Both the position numbers and the translations under genes were made by a program. A stretch of DNA of 30,404 nucleotides from Prototheca cutis (taxonomy: Eukaryota; Chlorophyta; Trebouxiophyceae; Chlorellales; Chlorellaceae). The stretch is from contig BCIH01000008.1 of the NCBI GenBank assembly GCA_002897115.2, positions 775,485 to 805,888 on the forward strand, given 5' to 3'. A model generated the notes under the pieces. That model had not been told where the DNA came from. It did no database searches and saw nothing but the letters and a program-made list of their open reading frames with translations. Positions 11,776-18,384 of this stretch are shown one piece after another (the stretch's first letter is position 1; the number at the start of each line of letters is the position of its first letter).

Positions 11776-12430
11776 GGTTGCGCCTGCTCGCGTCCGCCCA
11801 GACCTAAACAGCTGCTTTGGACGTCACCTGAAAAGAGATACATGCGGCTGGAAAACATGGGGTTGCTTCAGGCATCCGCATTCTCATCCCTCGAACTCGT
11901 GTCGGAGGTGGGGGCACGGATCTCCCAAATCTCTTTCAGGCCCTTCCGCGCAGCACCCCCCCCCTCGCACGACCGCGCGAAAATATTTATTCCGCACCAA
12001 AAATCCAGTCTGAGAACAGGGCGGGGTCGGAAAGGAGCGCGCTCGTGGGCAATTACCCTTCGACGGTCGGGTGCTGCGCAGCTGCGGGCGACGGGGCCAC
12101 CAAACAGCGTGTGCAGGCCCTCGAAGCGCCTGTTCACTCCAGAAATCAAGATAATGAAGCTATTTCGGGGATTGAGGATGCAAATGGGAGTTGTGTCTCC
12201 GCGATTATGTCGGCTTCTCGCTCGGCGGCCCTTGGCATTCTTCAAACGTGCCGGCAGTAAGCTCCTTGGGGTTGGCAAGGCCTTGGGGGTCACACACTGG
12301 TTGTTCCCCAGGGCAGGTGCTGTTTGGGCTGATTCCACAAGAAAATCTCCTCTCAAACTTCCATACCATCATTAAATTGGCCATTGCTGTCAAATCAAGG
12401 GGAGTACCATACATACAAAGACAGGTCAAT
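11776..12430. other. Upstream region of the CBS gene; no gene seen
   Basis: 655 bp between the start of the CBS gene and the stop of the next minus-strand reading frame, so it should contain the CBS-gene promoter and the neighbour's 3' UTR. Open frames on both strands are antisense shadows or motif-free. Confidence 0.45.
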
Positions 12431-13024
12431 CTAGGGATCAGATACAAGTTCAGCAACGGCCAACGTCATGGCCACCCATCTGGGCTCTGCAGCTGCGCCT
12501 GGCCTTGCTGTGGTCCTCCGCTTGTATTTCTGGCGGCTGCGTTCCCGCCGTCCGTTCTTCCGCTTCTTGGATCCAGAGCCTGAGTTGAGAGGTATCTCAG
12601 CCCAGAGCCCTTCTTCTTCTAGCTTTGCCGCGTGCTTGTCGATGGTTGCCGGAGACCATGTGCTCATCTTTGAGTGAGTGAATCGAAGAAGGTCATCCTT
12701 TGCTGCATGTGGGTCCTCCAGCATATAGCGCCGCACCAGACCGTCGATGACAGAGTCTTCCAGGGAGTGGCGAGCGGGCGGGGTTGAACGGCCAGCATCC
12801 TCCCCACTTGGAGGTGCCGCGCTCGGGGTCAGCGAGACCAGCTGGCTATCCACTGCAGCCTGCTGGGATCCGGCACCGTGGATGTCTCGTGGCGAATCCC
12901 GCTCAGCATAGCGGGGATTGGGCCGGCGCTGCCGGCTCCTGGCTCGGATCGTGCCATTCGTCCACGTGCTGGGCTTTGTCATCAGGCTGAGCAGCTGTGG
13001 TGGCTGGTGCCGGTTGACGTCCAT
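12431..13024 (-). CDS. Unrecognised basic protein with a possible helix-turn-helix-like segment
   Basis: An uninterrupted frame of about 197 codons, taking the ATG at 13024 (MDVNRHQPPQLL); it may instead be the last exon of a longer gene. I do not recognise the family. The N-terminal half is Pro/Ser/Arg-rich and looks disordered. Around residues 90-145 is a structured-looking segment (SVIDGLVRRYMLEDP, DDLLRFTHSKMSTWSPATID, KHAAKLEEEGLW) whose spacing is compatible with a small helical or winged-helix fold; that is a guess. It is followed by a strongly basic run, KKRKNGRRERSRQKYKRR, that would serve as a nuclear signal or nucleic-acid-binding tail. It lies 1.2 kb from the Fanzor, on the opposite strand, so it could be cargo of the same element or simply a host gene. 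Confidence 0.5.
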   Translation of the reverse strand: MDVNRHQPPQLLSLMTKPSTWTNGTIRARSRQRRPNPRYAERDSPRDIHGAGSQQAAVDSQLVSLTPSAAPPSGEDAGRSTPPARHSLEDSVIDGLVRRYMLEDPHAAKDDLLRFTHSKMSTWSPATIDKHAAKLEEEGLWAEIPLNSGSGSKKRKNGRRERSRQKYKRRTTARPGAAAEPRWVAMTLAVAELVSDP

Positions 13025-13335
13025 AGTCAAAAAACACCTTCTAATCCTCCTGCATTGAAGAGGACCATACGAATGGACAATGCAGCCACTGCATCAGACT
13101 GGTCGATGCGCCAGCTGTCGCAGCATCGAACACAGCACCCTGGTCGGCACCGGGCCGCCCCGCACAACGCACTGCTGCCACGTGAGCACGACCTCGAAGG
13201 GAGGGCTGCACCGGCGGCCGTCCTGGGACGTGCACGCCGGGGGTGGCATTGAGGTGGCCGACCATGCACAAGAGGCATGCCTTCGTGATGCGGCGGGGGG
13301 GGNGAGAAGACACCCACCCAGGGGGNACGCCGGCA

Positions 13336-13891
13336 TCAAGCGCGACGACAGGTGCTCCAGGCCGGGGCGAGGCCATTTGACGTGGCGTCCTGCGGTCGAC
13401 GGTGGCCCCCGTCCAGCAGCAGCACTGAGCGCAAGCCAAACAGCAGCACCGCCCGGTCGCCCCCAAGCAGGCGGCTGTCGTCCTTCCAAAGTGGAAGCAT
13501 ATACTGCGATGCAAGGCCGGGAGGGAGGCGTTGGCAAGCAGCGGTGAGGCACGACCAGAACGAAACCGGTGGAATCACATGGACACAGTTCGTCTCAGTG
13601 CTGCACACGATTTTCGGAGCCAGCCTAGATGCGAGGCTGCTTCAGATTGGATTGTGTGCTCGGCTGTCTATCTCTCCCACAAACACACACATACCTCGGG
13701 GGACGGGGTCCTGGTGGTGGCAGCGGTGTCTGCAGTGCCAGGATATTGTTGGCGAGCTCTAGGCCGGCATCCCCGACACTCGCCGGGCCATTGCAGGCGA
13801 TGCACTCTTCCTGCTCCTCTTCGAGGTTTATGGGATCGGCGTCCGCGGTCTGGGAGGGCCCGGCCCTCGCGCACGGGACCGGGACGGGCAT
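13336..13891 (-). CDS. Possible exons of an unrecognised minus-strand gene
   Basis: Two open stretches can be joined in phase. The first, ending at 13695 in AG|GTATGT, encodes INLEEEQEECIACN and then GLELANNILALQTP. The second begins after GTGTGCAG at 13600 and encodes ETNCVHVIPPVSFWSCL, LASQYMLPLWKDDSRLLGG and DRAVLLFGLRSVLLLDGG. Good splice sites and non-repetitive, protein-like composition suggest real coding sequence, but no family is recognised and the ends are not defined. Ambiguous bases at 13303 and 13326 obscure the downstream part. It may belong with the frame at 12431-13024. The alternative is chance open frames in GC-rich DNA. Confidence 0.3.
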
Positions 13892-14126
13892 CGAACCCTA
13901 GCCTTGAGTTATCGCAGCCAGGCGAGACAGCATTCCGACATCTCTTGGACGGTGTGCGGCGGCGGAAACCGAATGTAATGAATCCGTGCATTGAATGTGC
14001 CTGCGAGATGCGGGTCTGGTAGCCAGAATATGCATCGTGCTCGGTTGCACGGTCCTCGAACGGGCTCCTAGCGCATGGCCAGCGTCCAATGCGATAGATC
14101 CGGGCATCAGATGGACTCCAGGCCAG

Positions 14127-14146
14127 CGCCCGACAAGCGTCGGGCG
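14127..14146. repeat. Perfect 8-bp stem, 4-nt loop hairpin upstream of the Fanzor
   Basis: CGCCCGAC, loop AAGC, then GTCGGGCG: a perfect inverted repeat 39 bp before the Fanzor ATG. It could be a subterminal hairpin of a mobile element or a 5' UTR structure. In GC-rich DNA a single 8-bp stem can also arise by chance. Confidence 0.45.
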
Positions 14147-14185
14147 AGATACACGGCAGAACAATTTCCTGCTTAATTGTATACT

Positions 14186-17100
14186 ATGGTGACGCGCAAA
14201 AGAAAGCGCCCGAGGGAGGAATGGTGCGGGCGCGGGGCCGACTGCGGGTGTGCGGGTGCACGTCCCGCCTCAGCAGCTGCCGTGGCTGCAACCGCTCGTG
14301 CTGCAGGTGGCGGTGGTGAGGGTCCAGGCGCTGGCGGTTCCGACGGTGTCGGCGGCGCGAGCCCGGGAGGTGTCGGCGGCGCGAGCCCGGGTTCCGACGG
14401 TGTCGGCGGCGCGAGCCCGGGTTCCGACGGTGTCGGCGGCGCGAGCCCGGGAGGTGTCGGCGGCGCGAGCCCGGGTTCCGACGGTGTCGGCGGCGCGAGC
14501 CCGGGTTCCAACGGTGTCGGCGGCGCGAGCCCGGGTTCCAACGGTGTCGGCGGCGCGAGCCCGGGTTCCAACGGTGTCGGCAGCGCGAGCCCGGGTCCGG
14601 ACAACGGCCCTGTCGACAGCGGCCCGGGCGAGGGCGGCCAACCAGGGCCCTCGTCGCCGCCCGAGGAGCCCTGCACCCCCCCCGACACGGTCGAGGAGGA
14701 AAGTGCGGAAGGCAAGCACGTCACCAGGAAGTGTCCGCTGGCGCACCACCTGCGGGCGAACGTGTGCTCCGCGATCCTGGCTATGCTCAGCTGGAACGTG
14801 AAGTACTGAACAGGGCACATGCGCTTCGTGTCCGTGGTCACCCTCGAATATGTGCTGCGGAAGCTCGAAGGTGGCGAGGTGCCGGCGCAGCTGACCAAAG
14901 NAGAGTTCAGGAAGGCACTGAGCTACCTGTGTGGGAAGAACCACTACGGTGACGAGGGGCCAGACAACGTGAATGTGGCGGGCGAGTTGGCCAAGTTCAT
15001 TGNGAAGCACTATCGCTCGCGCGTGAGGCCGGCGGAGCATCAGTCCCGGCAATGTGATCTCCAGGCAGCGCAGCTCTACCAGGCGTACACGAGGCACCTC
15101 GACANGCACAAGCGGTCGTCGGCCCTGGGCCTGCTGGCTGCAAGCCTGGAAGCATGCGGGATGGGCGAAGGCGATGGGAGGGACATCGCGGAGCGCACGT
15201 GGTGCGACCTCGCGACTGGCATCAGACGCAGAGTCCGTGGGACGGACGACCTGGCCCGGCGACGCGGCCAGCTCATCGCCAAGATCGCTCCCCGGGCGCT
15301 GGAGAAGGCACTCGTTCAAGCTGCCGAGAAGTTTGGTCCNGGCTGGGAGGATGTTTTCGCTGACTTGGTTCCCGTCATCCGCCGCTGCGGCGCNGATGTG
15401 CCGTCGCCTGGAACCGTTCAAATGTCGTCTGACACGGATGCCGCCCAGGTGCGTNTGGNNNNNNTGGCNACNTGGCTCTCCNGCNTTTACGAGCTTGTTC
15501 TGCCACTGCGCGCAATATGGCTTTGGCCGATGGGATGCGGTCTTTGTACCGGGCTCAGCGCAGGCCATTCCCGCCCTCAAACAAGCCGTCCCGTCATTGC
15601 CGTCCCGTGCCTGCAGGTTGGCGCCGAGCCGGAAACACTCCGAATGGTGCCCAAGATGGTTGTGCCTCACGTGCCCCGCACCGAGGTGTGGTGTCGTGGA
15701 GCCCATCAGGCTGTGCTTGGTTTTGCGGGCGTGACTGGCGCGTGGGCAAGGCGTGATCGATGGGGTCCCTGGGAGGGGGGCATTCGCAGCGCAGAAATAT
15801 GCCCCGCCCTTGGCATTCCAGCGCCAGGCGACCCTGCCGCACAGCGTCAGCACGATCGCCGTCTCCCCCCCGCACAACTGCTGCTTGACGCCCACTGTTC
15901 CCACCCGCAGGCCGGCCCTGACCAGGGCGAGGGGGCCGGACAAGCTGCCCAGCAGGCAACCTCAGCGAGGTCTGGCCGGAGGAGGATCGGGGAGTGGCAG
16001 GGGAACGGCCGCCTGCACTGGCCGGNGGGCAAGGTGGAACGGGCCATGCCGCCCCGGCTCGACATGCTGTCGACCCACGATCCAGATGGCGTGGTCCACC
16101 TGGCATACGAGCTGCTGGCGATCTTCAAGCGTTGCGGCGACGAAGGCCGGCCTGTGCAGCTGCCCAAGGCCGACTGGTGCGCGATCATCCGCCCGATTGC
16201 CTCAGCGCTCATGTGGATCAGTACTGAGGCGCACAAGCTGTGCCTCCTGGCCACGGCTTCGGAGTTCATGTGGCGGACGAGGCGGTGGAAGCAGACGTTC
16301 ACCGTGCTGCCTGTGTGCCGCGCGTCGGCGCGGCACATCATCCTGGACACACATGCCCTGTGGCTTCTCTGCCAGCAAGCGGGTATCGAGGTCGGCACGC
16401 GGGATGCCTTTAGGGCAGGGGACCCGGAAAGCTGGAAGAGACTGTTCGACTTTCCCAGCACGTGGTTCGCGTCGGACCGCCGCGGCCGGGCCCGCATGCG
16501 CAAGAGGTTTGTGGGGTATGCTACGACCGACGGCGTGGCACTGAGCTTGGCCTTGGAGCGCGGGGGGGGCGCCAGCGGCGGGGAACAAGGCGGCTGCGTT
16601 CCCTGGCATGTCGCCAAGAAGGCCCGGAGGCGGGCCGCCGCGAAGGAGGCCAAGCAGGCCTCGTGGGATGTCAAGCAAGCCGCGAAGAAAGCCCAGGCGG
16701 CCACAAAGAAGGACAAGGAGGTGGTGGACAAGGCGCATGCGAAGAAGGTGCTGGGCGGCGGCGGCTGCTCGCTGGGCATCGACCCCGGCCGCAAGGTCAT
16801 CCTCACCTGCAACTACGGCGAGCAGAAGGGCGACACCGTGTGCATGACTACCAAGGAGTTCCGCCACAATGCGCACTTCAATAAGAACCGCGACACCCAC
16901 ATGAGGCTTCTGCGCGAGAACAAGGACCTGTGGGCCGTCGTGGAGAATGTGCCGTGGCTGGCGACCGGCCGCGCAGAGGACGTGTGCGACCACATCGACT
17001 ACATGTTCCAACCGTTTGACGGCGAGTGCACGCGTTTCGACGCCCTGCTCGACGTCACCTGCAGCTACAAATGGAAGAAGGCCGCGTTTGATGTGTACAT

Positions 17101-17796
17101 GATGAGGTACATGGCCATGGACAAATCCATCAAGGATGTCATTGCCTGCACAGGGCACCAGCCCAGCAGGCTTGTCGTGTTCATGGGCAATGCCAGCTTC
17201 AGGCACAACTCGCCCGGCCATCCTCCGAGCCTGGGGTGGCGCCGCTGGGCCAAGCGCATGCGGGAGGCACACGGACTGCTGGTGATAGAGGTCGACGAGT
17301 TTCGCACGTCGCAGGCACGCGCTGGGGTGGTTGCGCACGTGTGGGTGGGGGTGTTTTGTGGGTGCCGGGTTGGATGGGTGTGGGCAGTGGGCTGGGCGAG
17401 CAGGTGCAGAGGGGGTTGGAGCGGGCAGGTGCACGTACGCACACAGTGTAGCCACGGGCTGCTGGTCACACCGATCCCAAACGCGCAACGCCGCAGATTT
17501 GTTCGGCGTGCAAGGCGCATGCGCGCCTGGGTGGATGCAAAACCGCCCGGAACAAGTACGCCAAATGCGACCGCTGTGGCGTGGTGTGGAACCGCGACGT
17601 CAATGCCGCGCGGAACATCCGCCACCTGGGCGAGAGACTGGTCCTGACCGGCAAAAGACCGCCGCCTTTTGATCGCAAACCCGAGCTCGGGGCCCCCCTT
17701 TTTGCTGCACATCCCCCGTCTCCCAGGCGCTCCACCTGGTATGATTTCATCACCAAGATACTCCGCTGGCTCTGGCCTGCGGAACAGCACCATTGA
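14186..17796 (+). CDS. Fanzor (eukaryotic TnpB-like RNA-guided nuclease), interrupted by an in-frame TGA
   Basis: Fanzors are eukaryotic RuvC-fold DNA endonucleases guided by an RNA usually encoded at the gene's 3' side. Proposed exons: 14186-15448, 15911-17314 and 17497-17796; 988 codons with a TGA at 14807-14809, or 777 residues if translation starts at 14819. Order: basic start MVTRKRKRPREE (nuclear-signal-like), Ala/Gly region, nine GVGGASPG repeats, helical region, a Lys/Ala-rich basic coil (16610-16745), then the nuclease core. RuvC-I is GIDPGRK (Asp codon 16781). A GNASF...GHPPS segment precedes VIEVDEFRTSQ (Glu codon 17297, matching the relocated Fanzor glutamate). The zinc ribbon is ICSAC...CDRCG, and RuvC-III is NRDVNAARNI (Asp codon 17596). 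All catalytic positions are present. Spliceosomal introns and length favour Fanzor over a bacterial contaminant TnpB. The TGA may be a mutation or an error; the Fanzor1/2 class is undecided, length favouring Fanzor1. Confidence 0.9.
14336..14595. repeat. Coding minisatellite: nine GVGGASPG units
   Basis: A 23-bp core, GGTGTCGGCGG then CGCGAGCCCGGG, occurs nine times. Seven units are 30 bp (with SD or SN before the core) and two are 24 bp (without them). All units keep the Fanzor reading frame. Three consecutive units carry Asn instead of Asp, and the last has one Gly-to-Ser change, consistent with stepwise duplication towards the 3' end. The encoded stretch should be disordered and flexible. 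Confidence 0.9.
15449..15910 (+). other. Probable Fanzor intron containing an N run (assembly gap)
   Basis: Begins CAG|GTGCGT and ends CACCCGCAG. It is 462 bp, a multiple of three, so retaining or removing it keeps the frame, and it has no in-frame stop. The translated content looks non-protein (Trp, Cys and Pro scattered, no periodicity), whereas the joined product AAQ|AGPDQGEG continues smoothly. Ambiguous bases fall at 15455, 15459-15464, 15469, 15472, 15482 and 15485. It could also be retained coding sequence or an insertion. Confidence 0.5.
17315..17496 (+). other. GC-AG intron between RuvC-II and the zinc ribbon of the Fanzor
   Basis: The exon ends ...GAGTTTCGCACGTCGCAG (EFRTSQ), and the intron starts GCACGC and ends CGCCGCAG before ATTTGTTCGGCGTGC (ICSAC). 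The 182-bp length shifts the frame, so splicing is required to link the catalytic Glu to the zinc ribbon and last Asp. GC donors are a known minority class of spliceosomal introns. Confidence 0.85.
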
Positions 17797-18384
17797 ACAC
17801 GTGCTGTGAGGCCAGTTTTTTCTGGATTACCCTCGCGGATCTCGTGGGTGCGGCCCAGGGTGTCTGGGATCGTACCCCACCCGTTCGTGCGATGACCCCC
17901 CCCCGTAAGGGCGAATGTGGGGAAACACCATGTGCCGCCGATCTTGATCAAGAGGCAGCCAACTGTTGGTGCATGGACACTGTGGCTTTAATATTTAAAT
18001 TTCAGGATTATAGCTTGCGACACCGCGGGATTTAAGGGAATGGGGACCTGGCTGATTCCCCCTGGACCCAGCCAGTGTCACCAACGGTGTGTTGGAGGCT
18101 CATGGATACCCTGGCCACCCGGGGTTCATGAACCAAGTCAAAAAAGGTGAGCGTTGCCCCTCATTATCTAGTCTCTAGTGCATGATTCTTGCATGTGAAG
18201 AGGTTAATCATGGCATCATGTGCATTGTTAAATTACTGGCAAGCTTTTTTGACAGGTGGACTGCACGGCGCCCGGCGGTCACAAAGTGGGCAGCTGACAG
18301 ACGCGCCTCCCCTGAGCTGCTAGGTGCCAACATCAGGAGGGATGCCGTGGCGAGATCGCAGGCACGAGGCATACTCGAGTACGC
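17797..18384. other. Fanzor 3' flank with two adjacent palindromes; candidate guide-RNA or element-end region
   Basis: No protein gene seen in 588 bp. At 17942-17953 lies a perfect 12-bp palindrome, TCTTGATCAAGA, and five bases on, at 17959-17969, CCAAC-T-GTTGG. An AT-rich patch (TTTAATATTTAAATTT) follows at about 17987-18002. TnpB and Fanzor guide RNAs are commonly encoded at or after the 3' end of the nuclease gene, so this is the logical place for one; that is inference from position and small structures only. The right part also has to hold the promoter of the SnoaL-like gene. Confidence 0.35.

Follow-up and report, generated by a model that had tools for sequence, protein, structure and literature searches.

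Gene structure and catalytic motifs

We studied a window of 30,404 nucleotides from the colourless green alga Prototheca cutis (assembly GCA_002897115.2, contig BCIH01000008.1, positions 775,485 to 805,888 of the forward strand), in which a gene for a predicted RNA-guided nuclease of the Fanzor1 class lies inside a transposon copy. When the window was aligned with seven further long copies of this genome, the gene (14186..17796) resolved into three exons and two introns, with a GT-AG intron 1 and a GC-AG intron 2 (Table 1). The start ATG at 14186 and the stop codon were concordant with the other copies, and the GC donor of intron 2 was identical in all eight aligned sequences. GT donors for this intron were tried and dropped; GC-AG was preferred because it yields the E-x6-C spacing kept in homologues, which the GT donors would break. 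A GC-rich repeat in exon 1 (14350-14590) encodes GVGGASPGS-type units, whose number varies among copies.

An earlier note on this DNA had described a spliced Fanzor gene with three RuvC acidic motifs and a zinc ribbon. On the spliced model all of these were present, in the place and order that it gave: the RuvC-I aspartate of GIDPG (16781-16783) and the RuvC-II glutamate of VDEFRTS (17297-17299; fuller context VIEVDEFRTSQ) in exon 2, and in exon 3 the four cysteine codons of the C-x2-C ... C-x2-C zinc ribbon (beginning at 17500, 17509, 17566 and 17575) and the RuvC-III aspartate of NRDVNAARNI (17596-17598; fuller context WNRDVNAARNI). The RuvC-II acid is thus a glutamate six residues ahead of the zinc ribbon, and VVFMGNASF stands where, by our placement, the TnpB-type glutamate would be expected. 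These motifs are not a chance occurrence, since the spliced window protein matched the Pfam TNB domain (PF07282) with 54.3 bits (E 1.5e-14) and a profile of five copies matched distant Fanzor1-like proteins at E 3.2e-36 (see below).

The gene is carried by a high-copy transposon

Among the seven other long copies, sequence similarity to the window started at 11910-11934 in six and at 11975 in one, and stopped at 17881-17883 in all seven; among 20 fetched loci it began at 11910-11934 in 17 and ended at 17881-17884 in 15. In the genome searched (19,886,974 bases in 23 contigs) the locus DNA had at least 54 matching pieces (best 40 of 110 candidates scored), the 5' end at least 40 matching places (40 scored), and the TNB family at least 97 matches (best 150 of 181 candidates scored). 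The 3'-end motif, allowing up to two mismatches, occurred 72 times, against six for the reversed control. The gene is the cargo of a transposon with dozens of copies in the genome.

No clear codon bias was found at sites variable among copies in the first 2.3 kb of the element, so the Fanzor seems to be its sole recognisable gene; the promoter is presumably located in this leader. The leader also gave no coding signal for the serine recombinase that would mark a Fanzor2/IS607 element, although no search aimed at that family was made. The minus-strand open reading frame (ORF) at 12431-13093 was rejected as a second gene, with neither codon bias nor a Pfam match.

Two families of internal deletions retained both ends of the element (Table 1). 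In family A an identical single junction was found in all eight copies examined, which were 85.7-92.0% identical in pairs. In family B one junction was present in each of the three copies read (86.7-87.9% pairwise identity), with 9 bp common to both donors, and it was spanned in 40 of 40 scored places (best 40 of 114 candidates).

Some unusual stretches were noted in other copies. A frame of 2,483 residues at C4:886582 that includes a Fanzor zinc ribbon is an artefact of a run of N (C4:878300-888500; L059, L049). Poly-G runs in intron 2 of L039, where the run is long, and of L042 are perhaps real expansions, perhaps assembly artefacts. In L041 the exon 2 region includes a stretch of N and is about 700 bases longer, the excess resembling a repeated part of exon 2; this is probably an assembly join.

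Table 1. Coordinates of the transposon copy and its parts, in window positions
Feature	Position	Strand	Description	Basis
Whole Fanzor1 transposon copy	11910..17882	+	~5.97 kb; 5' boundary uncertain by ~15 bp, 3' boundary 17881/17882	
5' leader	11913..14185	+	apparently non-coding, promoter presumed	variable sites lack a clear codon-position bias
5' terminal part kept in deletion family A	11913..12230	+	joined to 17036-17882, one junction	
5' part kept in deletion family B	11921..13456	+	joined to 17542-17882	
Exon 1	14186..15448	+	N-terminal part; basic start MVTRKRKRPRE, variable GVGGASPGS repeats	copy alignment
Intron 1	15449..15910	+	GT-AG, phase 0	splice sites kept in copies with sequence there
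Exon 2	15911..17314	+	Fanzor1 core: TDGV motif, RuvC-I, RuvC-II alternative glutamate	homologues, fold
Intron 2	17315..17496	+	GC-AG	copy alignment, E-x6-C spacing of homologues
Exon 3	17497..17796	+	zinc ribbon (TNB domain, PF07282), RuvC-III, stop codon 17794-17796	
Right end	17784..17882	+	up to three predicted hairpins, putative omega RNA scaffold	low variation, folding
Predicted guide stretch	17882..17905	+	host DNA beyond the right end	position only; length assumed from studied Fanzors

Assignment to the Fanzor1 class

A DPG in RuvC-I together with a repositioned glutamate has been called the "molecular fingerprint" of Fanzors (in the text available from PMC10711439), and the catalytic glutamate has been placed in the loop ahead of the TNB domain (PMC11423790, likewise in part). 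Both DPG and E-x6-CxxC were present in five of five spliced copies. The strict published pattern limits the D-to-E distance to 120-160 and failed in all five copies because their spacing is 172; it also failed in nine of ten Fanzor1-like homologues tested. The pattern given for Fanzor1 in the accessible part of PMC3627910, D-X(125,275)-[TS][TS]-XX-C4 zinc finger-X(5,50)-RD, matched all five copies when loosened and was then unspecific, matching two of two TnpBs too.

Single-sequence searches, including the window exon against proteins and PDB, gave no match outside the zinc ribbon (0 of 7995 protein candidates scored). We used a profile of exons 2 and 3 of the five spliced copies (A1) and on the same profile with homologues added (A2, two of its ten rows from Prototheca). 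A search with A1 retrieved 13 proteins with E of 10 or below, of which five had an E of at most 6.3e-9, and searching again after the addition of homologues brought in four further proteins (P0014-P0017); to a varying degree these homologues share the blocks LP..HI.ID, TDGV, DPG, G-x2-SF and E-F-x-TS. Against seven distant Fanzor1-like proteins the A1 match extended over 369 columns, and against five TnpBs over 89 columns (E 1.3e-12), both sets having been retrieved with A1 or A2. Against PDB, A2 ranked SpuFz1 (5.8e-42), PpFz1 (1.5e-28) and GtFz1 (3.4e-24) above a mimivirus Fanzor2 (4.1e-5) and then a Cas12f (4.2e-4). Relatives were also sought in viral contigs with two alignments, which gave 288 and 43 pattern matches, none of them confirmed.

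The predicted structure of window exon 2, that is without the RuvC-III of exon 3, had a mean predicted local distance difference test (pLDDT) score of 55.4, with the RuvC part mostly at about 70-86. The nearest folds both to this model and to that of the homologue P0001 were solved Fanzor1 structures. In a tree of 22 rows, four copies grouped with P0001, P0014 and P0002-P0004 (95/99), inside a 19-row clade with SpuFz1, PpFz1 and GtFz1 (100/99). The outgroup consisted of one Fanzor2, whose row fills only 26% of the columns, and two TnpBs; 8 of the 19 inner branches were open and several rows were long-branched. By sequence and predicted fold, the protein is a genuine member of Fanzor1.

State of the copies

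The window copy is interrupted: exon 1 carries an in-frame stop at 14807-14809, absent in all six other copies with sequence there, and exon 3 is 6 bp short in the zinc-ribbon loop relative to the other 17 aligned copies. One of the seven other long copies, L039, has an open frame across all three exons, N aside, and the remaining six have gaps, deletions or frame breaks. The five long copies compared in pairs were only 90.5-91.8% identical. The ratio of nonsynonymous to synonymous changes (dN/dS) among copies was mostly 0.35-0.7 for exons 1 and 2 and scattered from 0.17 to 1.76 in exon 3, which points to some past selection on the protein.

The stop codon, the broken frames, the divergence between copies and ratios not near zero would all suit a decaying relic, a Fanzor1 by descent of which no copy now yields active nuclease or guide RNA. 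We regard this as quite possible, with the odds somewhat against it: one long copy is open, and the right end varies as little as the coding sequence (see below). In addition, N occur in several places and the assembly was made from short reads (650 contigs, PMC11302234, in its available part), so single-base defects, including some frame breaks, may be assembly errors.

Target sites and mobilisation

Among 17 copies with both ends, five were flanked by exact target-site duplications of 8-11 bp (L040, L042, L045, L051 and L054), the first C of which is possibly part of the element's C run. Two had weaker duplications (six bases in L046; ten with one mismatch in L052), and ten, the window copy included, had no clear duplication. 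A duplication score of 8, attained by 3.7% of mismatched pairs, was reached by 4 of the 17. All five exact duplications open with CG after T (T|CG, read by eye from the junctions), and the base after the C run was G at 15 of 19 right ends (background 0.36, p 1.9e-4). The 5' end is not fixed, since the duplication-flanked L040, L045 and L051 are missing roughly 11-20 bp there (counted by eye). Terminal inverted repeats were weak; 2.85% of random pieces scored equally well.

Candidate mobilising enzymes were searched for in the genome. There was no match at E 0.001 to the MULE transposase PF10551 (control positive in 3 of 14 genomes, though a gene that is divergent or unassembled may have been missed) or to the IS1595/Merlin transposase PF12762 (control positive in 1 of 14), and none to the hAT dimerisation domain PF05699 or to Helitron_like_N PF14214, for both of which the control was likewise without a match.

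The vehicle could be a Helitron2-like rolling-circle element, as in the Fanzor1 families of Chlamydomonas, instead of a cut-and-paste transposon. The variable length of the five exact duplications, the ragged 5' starts and the 3' terminal hairpin would agree with this, all three being features also described for CRe-1 to 3 in the accessible text of PMC3627910. The derivatives found here are internal deletions that keep both ends, whereas CRe copies are often 5'-truncated, although internal deletions occur there too; together with the absence of a Helitron_like_N match, albeit with a silent control, this leads us to consider a rolling-circle vehicle rather unlikely.

The right end and a putative omega RNA

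Between the stop codon and the right end, 11 of 88 sites were variable. The count was 206 of 1404 for exon 2, whereas the introns had 99 of 462 (intron 1) and 47 of 176 (intron 2); the 86 bp past the stop codon thus vary as little as coding sequence. Folding was better than the shuffle mean in all 12 copies tested of the 18 aligned (z -1.5 to -3.9), and the minimum-energy folds contained the terminal hairpin in 12 and the first hairpin in seven of them. An Rfam scan of the window gave no match at the gathering threshold. In the available text on characterised Fanzors (PMC10432273, PMC10711439) the omega RNA is located at the right end of the element and its guide in the flank, and by analogy the right end here would be the expected place of the guide-RNA scaffold.

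The hairpin could also be a DNA signal for the mobilising enzyme, be it a transposase or a rolling-circle protein. It lies 2-3 bp from the end of the element, many 5' ends also bear a GGGAAT..ATTCCC-like sequence, both ends are kept in both deletion families, and covariation is scant. The stretch of low variation nevertheless extends as far as the stop codon and, at about 85 bp, is longer than such a short signal at the terminus would require, and the placement matches that of the omega RNAs in the accessible parts of PMC10432273 and PMC10711439. A role purely as a DNA signal therefore seems unlikely to us.

Host genome and neighbouring genes

The assembly of strain JCM 15793 (GCA_002897115.2) was obtained by HiSeq 2500 sequencing and comprises 46 scaffolds and 650 contigs with 60.24% GC (Table 1 of PMC11302234, available in part). 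No chlorophyll a/b-binding (light-harvesting) domain PF00504 was found in the genome (control positive in 1 of 14), as expected of a colourless alga. Nine of ten neighbouring ORFs scanned matched Pfam families: CBS, URO-D (two ORFs), SnoaL-like, M20 peptidase, choline transporter-like, methyltransferase, ATE and myosin. The location in an algal nuclear genome, proposed in the earlier note, is supported; the gene itself, beyond what that note says, is the cargo of a high-copy transposon in an interrupted copy.

Interpretation

We favour, with a probability of roughly 0.75, the reading that a DNA transposon present in many copies in P. cutis has a Fanzor1 nuclease gene as the only gene recognisable in it, and that the locus is one such copy, interrupted. 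The Fanzor identity first read from the motifs was borne out, as Fanzor1, by profiles, predicted fold and tree: the profile comparisons with TnpB, Fanzor1 and Fanzor2 preferred Fanzor1, the exon 2 model matched solved Fanzor1 structures first (in overall fold only), and the copies fell within the Fanzor1 clade. Three results weigh against this reading or parts of it. With A1 alone, PDB searches ranked the mimivirus Fanzor2 first (2.8e-6) and PpFz1 eighth (0.0044), on the zinc-ribbon side. An approximately unbiased (AU) test left a placement of the copies as a branch next to Fanzor2 and TnpB unrejected (p 0.283). Finally, the RNAalifold consensus of the right end has 28 pairs, one with a compensatory change, and for this reason its structure is backed by energy and conservation and not by covariation.

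That the protein belongs to another RuvC-like family (TnpB, Fanzor2 or Cas12) is highly improbable: its zinc-ribbon part alone matches TnpB and Cas12f models, but the blocks LP..HI.ID and TDGV upstream of RuvC-I are common with Fanzor1, the glutamate adjoins the zinc ribbon, and profile and fold comparisons favour Fanzor1.

If the locus is such a Fanzor1 transposon, a transcript of the right end would form an omega RNA that takes its guide from the host DNA adjoining the element. The Fanzor protein of an intact copy would bind the omega RNAs of full-length and deleted copies alike and, once an element has left, would cut the matching empty site, whereupon repair from the occupied homologue would restore the element. 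Transposase from elsewhere would move the elements, and TCG or part of it might, at a guess, be the target-adjacent motif. More tentatively, and we hold this doubtful, families A and B could be guide-only elements, with dozens of copies each making an omega RNA aimed at its own empty site and all sharing in trans the Fanzor produced by the few intact copies; the genome would then be a scattered array of guides by which parasites of a parasite are maintained and spread.

For the question of what role Fanzors play for eukaryotic transposons, full-length elements beside amplified, gene-less derivatives that keep their ends, in a small genome, offer a test provided by nature. Guide RNAs made by the derivatives would mean that the nuclease acts in trans to retain the elements. 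Auxenochlorella, the photosynthetic sister genus, could serve as a laboratory host; homologous recombination is efficient there, according to the available text of PMC12633428.

Comparison with known Fanzor elements

The kind of element described here is already known, and the Prototheca copy is an additional member of it. A 2023 article in Science Advances reportedly tested Fanzors from green algae. Among green algae, Fanzor1 genes have been catalogued in Chlamydomonas, Volvox and Chlorella (PMC3627910), a Fanzor2 is recorded in Chloropicon (PMC10711439), and a preprint reports that in Auxenochlorella no repeat is more abundant than a Fanzor element described as uncharacterised (PMC12633428), each in the part of the source available; the suggestion of an undescribed system in the earlier note is not supported. 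For the Prototheca element itself no description was found in the accessible literature on Fanzors and Prototheca or green algae, a body of text that leaves most subscription papers uncovered.

The nearest parallel, judging from the accessible text of PMC12633428, is the repeat of Auxenochlorella UTEX 250-A, of Prototheca's sister lineage, where a Fanzor likewise resides in the commonest interspersed repeat of a streamlined genome; the likeness is one of description, and that text gives no account of ends, duplications or derivatives. The elements CRe-1, CRe-2 and CRe-3 of Chlamydomonas reinhardtii, as far as PMC3627910 was available, are also green-algal, high-copy and non-autonomous with an intron-containing Fanzor1, and their duplications are variable in length too (about 7-19 bp). 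They differ in being Helitron2 elements inserted after TTTT or T-rich tetranucleotides, whereas the resolved Prototheca cases lie at T|CG, and in being frequently 5'-truncated, whereas the Prototheca derivatives have lost internal sequence and kept both ends. CMe-1A of the red alga Cyanidioschyzon merolae (same source and extent) is a further algal Fanzor element, of about 150 copies and unknown transposon class; unlike here, its duplications were undeterminable, and its copies are about 80% identical to the consensus. With the solved SpuFz1, PpFz1 and GtFz1 (8gkh, 9cf0-9cf3, 9cer-9cet) the Prototheca protein shares motif blocks, a predicted RuvC fold and a glutamate next to the zinc ribbon, at about 15% identity in structural alignments and with a different host and transposon. 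The Prototheca element adds a divergent green-algal lineage to Fanzor1.

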